A model generated the notes under the pieces. That model saw nothing but the letters and a program-made list of their open reading frames with translations. It did no database searches and had not been told where the DNA came from. Of a stretch of 64,000 bases of DNA, positions 37,016 through 40,022 are shown in pieces; positions within the stretch are counted from its first letter, which is position 1, and every line of letters begins with the position of its first letter. Origin of the DNA: an uncultured Pelagibacteraceae bacterium. Its GTDB lineage: Bacteria; Pseudomonadota; Alphaproteobacteria; Pelagibacterales; AG-422-B15. The position numbers and the translations under genes were made by a program. The stretch covers positions 1 to 64,000 of the forward strand of contig CABZLP010000001.1 of NCBI GenBank assembly GCA_902526565.1, read 5' to 3'.

Positions 37016-37531
37016 TTACGCATTATTGCCAAAAATCATACGTTTATTGATTAGATCGTAGATTAAGAAGGCTCCCATTCCATACAAAATACTTGAAATA
37101 AATGTGTTTTGAAGAAATGGTAGCCCCATAACATAGCATGTAATGAGTCCTGAAAAACTATTTTCATACATGCCTGATCCATACCAGACGGTAAAGTTTG
37201 TAATTAAATAGAATACCAGAACGCCAGCAGTAATACCTAAAATAGAATTTAAAATTGTTACTCTTGATTCTATAAATGTCCCAATCAAAACACATATTGC
37301 TAAAGAAAAGTATATTATTGGCATGCCTGAGTGAAATCCAAGATATAAATCGCTTAAGAGCATGGCTGCTAATGGAACTAAATATGCTACGATTTTTTTA
37401 TTTATTATAGCACCTGAAAATACAGCCATTCCAAGAATTGGGGTGAAGTTCGGTGGATGGGGTATCAATCTACTCAACGCAAGTAATATAATTAAACCTA
37501 ATCCAAAATAAACACTATACTTCGCTTTCAT
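37016..37531 (-). CDS. DUF6580-like integral membrane protein, putative transport protein
   Basis: RLIPHPPNFTPILGMAVFSGAI followed by multiple TM helices. Directly downstream of the riboswitch-linked TonB receptor. Confidence 0.75.
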   Translation of the reverse strand: MKAKYSVYFGLGLIILLALSRLIPHPPNFTPILGMAVFSGAIINKKIVAYLVPLAAMLLSDLYLGFHSGMPIIYFSLAICVLIGTFIESRVTILNSILGITAGVLVFYLITNFTVWYGSGMYENSFSGLITCYVMGLPFLQNTFISSILYGMGAFLIYDLINKRMIFGNNA

Positions 37532-37555
37532 AAGATAATTTATAAACTCAATGTA

Positions 37556-39796
37556 TTAAAAAGTATATGCTAAATCGAAGAATAAGTTTCTTTCAGGTAA
37601 TGGATAAACGCTTGATAATCCATAATGGGCATCATCGTGAAAAGTGCTTGATACAGCAAAATCATATGCCGCTTTATCAAATAAATTATTAATACCAAAA
37701 TTTAGCGTATAATTTGAGTCAACAAGATTAAAATAAGTATTTATAAAATAATAATCTGGTATTTGTGGCTCTATATTTTCCTGATCATTCGATACATACT
37801 TTTTGTCTAAATAATTTAATTCTAAATCAAGAGTTAAATTATTTCTGACCTCTGTTTCATATGCAATACTAAATTGTATTGGAGAAACAAGTGGAACGGA
37901 TTTACCTTCTAAACTTAAAGTTGTACCACCACCCATTAAATTTTTCCAAGTACTAGAGTTACTACAATAAGTTGTGTTATCATAGTTACATGCATTCGGG
38001 CCGCCTGTTCCAGGAGTAAGTGAGCCCGAAGTAAACTCTGCGATTGTATAGCTCAAAGAGCCCTTTAACTTATTAGATTGATCAAAATTATACCCAAAAT
38101 CAATGTCTACGCCTTGACGCTCTATAGGGTCTATATTTGTATTTATATTATTATAATATTGTATTTCATTTGTAGTATCAATCTCGTAATAACTTACATT
38201 AAAATTTAGACCATCTTTAATATATCTTAGTCCAATATCATATCCTTCAGACTCCTGACTCTTCAGATCAAATGTTAATGCTGGACTCGATGAGGCAACT
38301 CTTTCATCAATATTAGGAATTCGAAAAGATACTGAATAACTTGAGTAAAGAGTTAGTTCTCTATTGAGCTTTTTTTCAAAACCTAGATTGAAAGCCTGAT
38401 TGCTTGAAGTGTTATTATACGTTGTCATATCGTAAATAACTGGATAGAAAACTCCAAAATATTCTACATCCGCAAAACCAGGGGCAGTTTTATCTATATC
38501 GTCTCTTGCTTGAAAAATACTTTTTTCGTCTCTGTAACCTAATGAAATTGAGAGATCATATTCATTAATATATGTTGTATTTTGAAAATATAACGATTTT
38601 ACTTTAAGATCAGCATAAATATTCTGTCCTACAGAGTCACCTTCCTTGCGACTTTTTGCTGAGTCATAAAATGAATGTGCATAATCATAACCGAGATTTA
38701 ATATGTTTGAGTGTGTTTCATATATTTGCCTTGTTTCATATCGTGAATTAAACTGATTTCCATCGATGGTTGTCACTGTATACCTGTCACTACTATCAGG
38801 AGTTGTGATCGTATTATTATTAGTAGGGTAAAAAGATTTATCTGTTTTATCTCTGTATCCAGCATTAAGAGTAAATTTATTTAATTCATTCACATTAATA
38901 ACAACGTTTGCATTTATTGCCTGCATATCTGTATTAGCATAACTTCTCCTTCTCACGTCATCACATGAGCCAGTGCCGGAGTCCCCACTGCCAATATTTC
39001 TTGCGATTTTGCTATCCTCATATCGGTTACAAGAGTGATAACTATAAACCTCACCATTTTTTACTCTTGGACCTGGGAGATCTTTTTCATTTTCTATCGA
39101 CATGACATCCAGGCTTAAATTTATATTATCTATTTTATACTTCGTATTTAATAAAAGATTACTTTCCTCAAAGTCTGCTGCATCTCGATAGTTGCTATTT
39201 GAAGTTTGGGACCCAAAAAGACTCAAGGAACTAGCATCATTTATTTTGGTAAATAATGATAAATCTGCACTCTTATTACTGTATGAACTTATTGAGGTTT
39301 TTAGTGAGTTAGTAATATCGTCATTATTTATTACAATATTGATAGCACCTCCAACTGCACCTGAACCATACAATGTTGCAGCCGATCCTCCTCTAACTAC
39401 CTCAATTCTCTCAATGCTATCAGTAGGTATATGAGAGTTTATGGTAGACATATCAACGTCATTGAGACGTCTACCATTAATTAAAATTAATGTATTTGAT
39501 TTTGCTGTTTCTCCAAACCCTCGAATGTCTAGAGTTGTATATACTCCGTCATACCCAGCTGCTGTTGTTCTTGTAGAAATACCTGAGTAGCTTTCTATTA
39601 TTTTTGGCAAGGATTTATTTTGATACAGTTTAAGATCATCTTTAGAAATTATTGTGATATTTGAGCCAGCCAAGCCAGATGAAAGCCTTGTGTACTCTTC
39701 ACTGCTAGGATTAATCAAAATTTCTGGCGTTTCGGCACTTAAATTGCCAATAAAAGTTATTAATATAAATATAGATAGTACTAATTTTTTAGTCAT
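37556..39796 (-). CDS. TonB-dependent receptor (BtuB-like, cobalamin-responsive)
   Basis: Signal peptide MTKKLVLSIFILITFIGNLSA, plug domain (LDIRGFGETAKSNTLILINGRRLNDVD...IERIEVVRGGSAATLYGSGAVGGAINIVI), C-terminal barrel ending NLFFDLAYTF. Start moved from 39829 to 39796, where GGAGG precedes ATG. Confidence 0.93.
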   Translation of the reverse strand: MTKKLVLSIFILITFIGNLSAETPEILINPSSEEYTRLSSGLAGSNITIISKDDLKLYQNKSLPKIIESYSGISTRTTAAGYDGVYTTLDIRGFGETAKSNTLILINGRRLNDVDMSTINSHIPTDSIERIEVVRGGSAATLYGSGAVGGAINIVINNDDITNSLKTSISSYSNKSADLSLFTKINDASSLSLFGSQTSNSNYRDAADFEESNLLLNTKYKIDNINLSLDVMSIENEKDLPGPRVKNGEVYSYHSCNRYEDSKIARNIGSGDSGTGSCDDVRRRSYANTDMQAINANVVINVNELNKFTLNAGYRDKTDKSFYPTNNNTITTPDSSDRYTVTTIDGNQFNSRYETRQIYETHSNILNLGYDYAHSFYDSAKSRKEGDSVGQNIYADLKVKSLYFQNTTYINEYDLSISLGYRDEKSIFQARDDIDKTAPGFADVEYFGVFYPVIYDMTTYNNTSSNQAFNLGFEKKLNRELTLYSSYSVSFRIPNIDERVASSSPALTFDLKSQESEGYDIGLRYIKDGLNFNVSYYEIDTTNEIQYYNNINTNIDPIERQGVDIDFGYNFDQSNKLKGSLSYTIAEFTSGSLTPGTGGPNACNYDNTTYCSNSSTWKNLMGGGTTLSLEGKSVPLVSPIQFSIAYETEVRNNLTLDLELNYLDKKYVSNDQENIEPQIPDYYFINTYFNLVDSNYTLNFGINNLFDKAAYDFAVSSTFHDDAHYGLSSVYPLPERNLFFDLAYTF

Positions 39797-39879
39797 ATTT
39801 TGCCTCCAGTTTGAAGTCACCGCAAACAAAGTATGCCCAAATGATTATCCCGATCACGTGTGGATGACTATATTTTGTT

Positions 39880-40022
39880 GGTAGGTCTCCTGACTTCTCC
39901 ATCAATATTTGAATACGCCTTCCCAATAGAATCAGTGGCATCTGTATTCAAACTCATGAGTTACAGTTGCGGGTACAGCTAAGGATTTAAACCTTATTCC
40001 CTGTTATTCACTTTTCGTGAAC
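39880..40022 (-). promoter_or_regulatory. Cobalamin (AdoCbl-class) riboswitch
   Basis: Minus strand carries ACAGGGAATAAGG...TTAGCTGTACCCGCAACTGTAA...ACAGATGCCACTG...TGGGAAGGCG...GAAGTCAGGAGACCTACC, the characteristic cobalamin-element order. Confidence 0.95.

Follow-up and report, generated by a model that had tools for sequence, protein, structure and literature searches.

A DUF6580 Membrane Protein as a Candidate Inner-Membrane Cobalamin Importer in a Riboswitch-Controlled Operon of an Uncultured Pelagibacteraceae Bacterium

The DUF6580 (PF20221) protein of an uncultured Pelagibacteraceae bacterium, encoded in the 64,000-nucleotide stretch of DNA analysed here (the window), is likely an inner-membrane cobalamin importer that functions without an ECF module, in a manner resembling BtuM, as part of a B12 uptake operon; transport is untested. 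This assignment is built on gene content, linkage, a topology signal, residue conservation and a predicted fold. BtuCDF is missing from many B12-dependent bacteria, for which the inner-membrane step of B12 uptake is an acknowledged gap (PMC6072759). A literature search found nothing naming the DUF6580 family, and two papers on HIMB59/AEGEAN-169, whose identity with this lineage is uncertain, make no mention of B12 transport.

Organization of the Proposed Uptake Operon

The leader of the operon includes: (i) a cobalamin riboswitch aptamer (RF00174; 39863..40041, minus strand), (ii) a P13/L13-type hairpin (39838..39860, minus strand) and (iii) an expression-platform hairpin (39794..39835, minus strand). 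The aptamer is matched by cmscan over the full-length model (positions 1-189) with 112 bits (E 3e-27; gathering score 31.5), and the match encloses the complete cobalamin riboswitch that the earlier note had placed at 40022-39880 on the minus strand. By covariance model the element is a cobalamin riboswitch, with cobalamin binding and a change in expression being inferred. Directly 3' of the aptamer, the second element has an 8-bp stem and a CGGGAU loop. Among 13 distinct family sequences, 93% of cells in this hairpin are paired, compared to 25-50% in slid controls, and two pairs have changes on both sides. The hairpin is read, from established cobalamin riboswitch anatomy, as a putative P13/L13 that kisses L5 (AUCC), the kissing role being an inference. 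In the expression-platform hairpin, both the Shine-Dalgarno sequence (GGAGG) and the start codon (AUG) of the receptor gene are base-paired. This hairpin has an RNA fold z-score of -2.8 and is found in similar form in many, not all, relatives. The leader is built like a translational off-switch, and that cobalamin turns expression off is inferred.

The first gene of the operon (37556..39796, minus strand) opens with ATG and encodes a TonB-dependent receptor of 746 aa, with the Plug (PF07715) and TonB barrel (PF00593) domains of Pfam. Its closest solved relative in the PDB is BtuB (E 3e-12), and the protein, noted earlier as a TonB receptor, is read as a BtuB-related outer-membrane corrinoid receptor. 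The cut-off of the full-length BtuB equivalog is not met (67.7 bits vs 599.7), and the match is mainly to the plug region. The receptors at other DUF6580 loci have TIGR01779 BtuB as their best match. A gap of 24 nt separates the receptor gene from the DUF6580 gene (37016..37531, minus strand; 171 aa), in agreement with the small multi-transmembrane gene noted earlier at about 25 nt past the receptor. The DUF6580 protein scores 154.1 bits against the PF20221 cut-off of 27. The best explanation of this arrangement is that riboswitch, receptor and DUF6580 form one B12-controlled uptake operon.

Predicted Fold and Comparison to Known Transporters

The DUF6580 protein is modelled with six helices by AlphaFold (pLDDT 93.2 and pTM 0.88 in a run with 87 sequences), and two runs agree. 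In both, the PDB matches above 0.5 probability are ECF S-components only, including a second FolT. In the second run, FolT is matched with a probability of 0.98 (TM 0.55, E 0.4) and PanT follows at 0.87 and 0.82, with E-values of 0.3-1.3 across these matches. Foldseek E-values in this range are weak and not significant alone; an ECF S-component fold is thus probable for the DUF6580 model, not proven. The comparison to ECF S-components proposed in the earlier note is, in this sense, positive with moderate statistics. BtuM is absent from the PDB matches listed for the model, and no sequence match to PDB chains is detected with a single sequence or a profile at E up to 10.

The Lys and Arg residues of DUF6580 cluster in L2, L4 and the two termini and are nearly lacking from L1, L3 and L5. 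Such a distribution is consistent with a six-helix protein whose termini are both cytoplasmic; the conserved loops L1 and L3 would then face the periplasm, the side from which S-components bind substrate. The conserved loop motifs are R21 and PHPPNFTP in L1 and D61 and GFH in L3. Four residues (R21, D61, N112 and W116) are invariant in 87 DUF6580 sequences, while His25 of L1 is present in 84 and His67 of L3 in 75 of the 87. His67 and/or His25 probably ligate cobalt, as inferred from conservation and position without binding data. A conserved cysteine as cobalt ligand, in parallel to BtuM, was considered and rejected: the sole well-conserved cysteine (Cys132) resides in helix 6, outside L3, is Ser or another residue in 19 of the 87 sequences, and is replaced in riboswitch-linked members such as L131.

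A divergent branch of DUF6580 proteins (L051:8711-9214 and L052:8518-9015) has neither His25 nor His67, has no riboswitch and is encoded beside a peptidase M3 gene. The large adjoining genes were evaluated as TonB receptors and rejected on their Pfam assignment to peptidase M3; thus, these are not B12 loci, and the branch probably has another substrate.

The nearest functional parallel is BtuM of Thiobacillus denitrificans, a small six-helix inner-membrane protein of S-component fold with cytosolic termini and no ECF module, which is linked to BtuB and proposed to import cobalamin alone (PMC6072759). BtuM ligates cobalt via an invariant Cys80 in L3 and is reported mostly in Proteobacteria (PMC6072759). 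DUF6580 shares with BtuM the absence of an ECF module and the linkage to a BtuB-type receptor, and its predicted six helices and cytosolic termini and its probable S-component fold would match those of BtuM; EcfT is noted in none of the 53 genomes of the window's family and in four of 50 other DUF6580 genomes. By contrast, Cys80 has no counterpart in DUF6580, which has His67 and His25 in L3 and L1, and the distribution of DUF6580 extends to candidate phyla radiation (CPR) bacteria, Verrucomicrobiota, Acidobacteriota and others. On these features, DUF6580 would resemble BtuM in function, yet it lacks the sequence similarity and the defining cysteine that would place it in the BtuM family.

Other transporters are more distant. 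FolT and PanT, the best fold matches, share 12-16% identity with DUF6580 over the structural alignment and differ in having folate or pantothenate as substrate and in depending on an ECF module, a dependence for which the 53 family genomes provide no EcfT. BtuCDF, an ABC transporter with a FecCD permease that acts behind BtuB, has the same place in the pathway as is proposed for DUF6580, yet FecCD is missing from the family and from 42 of the 50 other genomes. CbrT of Lactobacillus delbrueckii is a vitamin B12 S-component that needs the ECF module (ECF-CbrT) and in solitary form does not support growth (PMC5997447), whereas most DUF6580 genomes are devoid of EcfT.

Neighbour Genes and the CPR Loci

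The neighbour genes of DUF6580 that were scanned include, on the transport side, TonB receptors (11) and BtuF-like binding proteins (six) and, among others, diphthamide-synthase-like ATP pyrophosphatases (seven), ribonucleotide reductases (five) and cobalamin adenosyltransferases (five). The ATP pyrophosphatases (PF01902; L089:3768-4463, L109:3736-4458 and L153:2835-3749, with similar genes in other loci, e.g., L126) recur in several phyla at loci headed by a cobalamin riboswitch, where they are encoded between the BtuB-like receptor and DUF6580; diphthamide is not known from bacteria. The BtuF-like proteins (PF01497) adjoin DUF6580 in L109:5038-5979, L115:3477-4475 and L150:5039-6001, and the genomes of the first two (G454 and G460) have only weak FecCD matches. 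A BtuF-like binding protein may hand B12 to DUF6580. In an Ignavibacteria locus (L114), a complete MetH (2137 bits) is encoded directly after DUF6580.

Six CPR loci pair DUF6580 with a class II-type ribonucleotide reductase, and five of the six include an adenosyltransferase of the PduO or BtuR type. Two of these (L096 and L138) have the order nrdR, reductase, AdoCbl-II riboswitch, DUF6580 and adenosyltransferase, two (L125 and L141) have reductase, adenosyltransferase and DUF6580, and one (L092) has reductase, an adenosyltransferase of the unrelated BtuR type and DUF6580. In L118, a reductase with a class II B12-dependent domain resides beside DUF6580. No riboswitch is detected in L118, L125, L141 or L092, even at E 1. 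The combination of reductase, adenosyltransferase and DUF6580 looks like a minimal module to import, activate and use B12.

These loci bear on an explanation in which DUF6580 handles B12, by stripping or swapping the upper ligand or by delivery, while another, unrecognised permease performs the transport. BtuM also modifies its substrate, by decyanation (PMC6072759), and the BtuF-like neighbours of several loci would suit a handling role. However, FecCD and EcfT are not found in the 53 family genomes nor in most of the CPR genomes that bear DUF6580, and the only B12-related genes seen in the CPR loci are the reductase, the adenosyltransferase and DUF6580 itself. A handling role is thus considered unlikely, and import by DUF6580 remains the preferred reading.

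B12 Use and Supply in the Family of the Window

The family of the window was sampled in 53 genomes, most of them incomplete and mostly of 0.7-1.3 Mb. DUF6580 is encoded in 46 and RF00174 in 44 of the 53, each as one copy per genome. The two share a contig at a distance of a few kb, except in G010, where they are split across contigs. In the three genomes with DUF6580 and without the switch, the contigs break off some 0.7-1.7 kb upstream of DUF6580. Six genomes have neither DUF6580 nor riboswitch, five of which are incomplete. In one genome that is 98% complete (G007), mutases are kept and no DUF6580, cobalamin riboswitch, FecCD or EcfT is found. G007 is a real exception in the family, perhaps due to an assembly gap.

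Proteins with a B12-binding domain are present in all 53 genomes. The examples read are of the methylmalonyl-CoA mutase type, one of them followed by a MeaB-like GTPase and one from the window's own genome. The B12 users of the family are, by these sequence assignments, AdoCbl-dependent acyl-CoA mutases. MetH with an activation domain was rejected as a B12 user, as the domain is found in none of the 53 genomes.

The known routes of supply are not apparent. The genome of the window (69% complete) has no detectable FecCD (BtuC-type) permease, consistent with the earlier remark that no btuC, btuD or btuF is nearby. Across the 53 family genomes, no genuine FecCD is found and matches reach only 20-31 bits; these were rejected as BtuC, the example examined (L032) being a ZnuB-type ABC-3 protein (227 bits) encoded beside an ABC ATPase. 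EcfT and CobS are likewise found in none of the 53. With mutases present and CobS, FecCD and EcfT absent, these bacteria would use B12 while neither making nor completing cobamides and without a known inner-membrane importer.

Import of cobalt or of another precursor for corrinoid synthesis can be weighed on the same genomes. Cobalamin riboswitches also control cobalt transporters, and riboswitch control alone cannot separate corrinoid from cobalt uptake. CobS, however, is needed for both corrinoid synthesis and cobinamide salvage, and its absence from all 53 genomes would render cobalt or cobinamide useless for making B12 there. The partner of DUF6580 is, moreover, a BtuB-like receptor, and in the CPR loci DUF6580 is paired with adenosyltransferase. 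A precursor as the substrate is therefore very improbable. Thus, of the earlier proposal that the protein is the inner-membrane component for B12 or a precursor, the B12 part is supported by the association with B12 loci, the absence of FecCD and the predicted fold, with transport itself inferred, while the precursor option is disfavoured.

Riboswitch Linkage Beyond the Family

DUF6580 is rare in the class, with nine matches over the cut-off in a draw of 385 genomes. In complete genomes of a second family of the same order, an AdoCbl-II riboswitch and a BtuB-like receptor precede DUF6580; thus, two different riboswitch classes are upstream of the same receptor and DUF6580 pair. A third lineage has a cobalamin riboswitch upstream of a receptor gene that converges on DUF6580.

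A search of the whole collection retrieved more than 574 relatives. The best 80 of them were taken, and 71 of these come from outside the family of the window. Among these 71 loci, 24 have a cobalamin riboswitch within about 4.5 kb. The query was itself B12-linked and only its best matches were sampled, so that this rate may be inflated for PF20221 overall. The linked loci span about 11 phyla (Pseudomonadota, Fidelibacterota, Patescibacteria (CPR), Verrucomicrobiota, Ignavibacteriota, Bacteroidota, Myxococcota, Acidobacteriota, SAR324, Planctomycetota and Rokuibacteriota), and the DUF6580 context therefore reaches further than the earlier note proposed. In five loci (L096, L138, L120, L131 and L150), the switch immediately precedes DUF6580 in the same orientation; in 13 of the 24 it has the same orientation at a greater distance upstream, and in six it is on the other strand. 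L120 has two cobalamin riboswitches (L120:4269-4399 and L120:5018-5156) on the strand of DUF6580, one on either side of it, and the second precedes a gene for an FAD-dependent oxidoreductase.

In 50 non-family genomes with DUF6580, RF00174 has 48 matches in about 158 Mb. The DUF6580 loci account for 0.445 Mb (0.28%) of this sequence and include 21 of the 48 matches, compared to 0.14 expected (Poisson probability about 1e-38, kinship ignored). On the tree, the linkage label needs 14 changes, and at least eight of these cannot be avoided without breaking well-supported branches. No riboswitch linkage is seen in a clade of 19 Bacteroidota rows. Genuine FecCD (>280 bits) is present in eight and EcfT in four of the 50 genomes, leaving 42 without FecCD. 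The co-occurrence of the family with cobalamin riboswitches in the absence of BtuCDF, which the earlier note had marked for survey, is thus upheld, and the finding that would have refuted its reading (a complete btuCDF elsewhere in the genome together with no B12 association) did not materialise, as FecCD is absent from the 53 family genomes and the linkage is strong. That the linkage is an accident of gene order and the role of DUF6580 unrelated could draw on the L051/L052 pair and the Bacteroidota clade without riboswitch neighbours, yet is already strongly contradicted and scarcely tenable given the 21 matches against 0.14 expected, the two riboswitch classes that precede DUF6580 loci and at least three B12-enzyme contexts (mutase genomes, ribonucleotide reductase operons and a MetH operon).

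Proposed Mechanism and Implications

The B12 uptake operon is proposed to operate as follows. With ample cobalamin inside the cell, the riboswitch would favour the expression-platform hairpin, in which the start codon and ribosome-binding site of the receptor gene are sequestered; a shortage of cobalamin would allow translation of the operon. The BtuB-like receptor, with TonB, would bring cobalamin across the outer membrane, and DUF6580 would then move it across the inner membrane. DUF6580 is predicted to do so as a six-helix protein of S-component fold with cytoplasmic termini and the conserved loops L1, L3 and L5 in the periplasm, where His67 and/or His25 would probably ligate cobalt in the role of Cys80 of BtuM. 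As no ECF module is encoded, DUF6580 would act by itself, which also appears to be the case for BtuM. AdoCbl-dependent acyl-CoA mutases would be the recipients of the imported cobamide. Substrate, transport, cobalt ligation and switch direction are inferred in this scheme, for which no transport or binding data exist.

The evidence leaves evenly balanced a broader proposal: among bacteria without BtuCDF, DUF6580 would be the main, so far unrecognised, importer of cobalamin, also in those CPR bacteria that encode their B12-dependent ribonucleotide reductase together with an adenosyltransferase and DUF6580, and it would function without an ATPase module, with histidine as the cobalt ligand. If true, one family of hitherto unknown function would supply the inner-membrane step of B12 uptake across some ten phyla besides CPR and open-ocean bacteria, and predictions of which bacteria take up B12 would change. 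DUF6580 would also join the small set of S-component-like proteins for which transport needs no ATPase module and would explain how B12 is supplied to ribonucleotide reductase in the tiny genomes of CPR bacteria.
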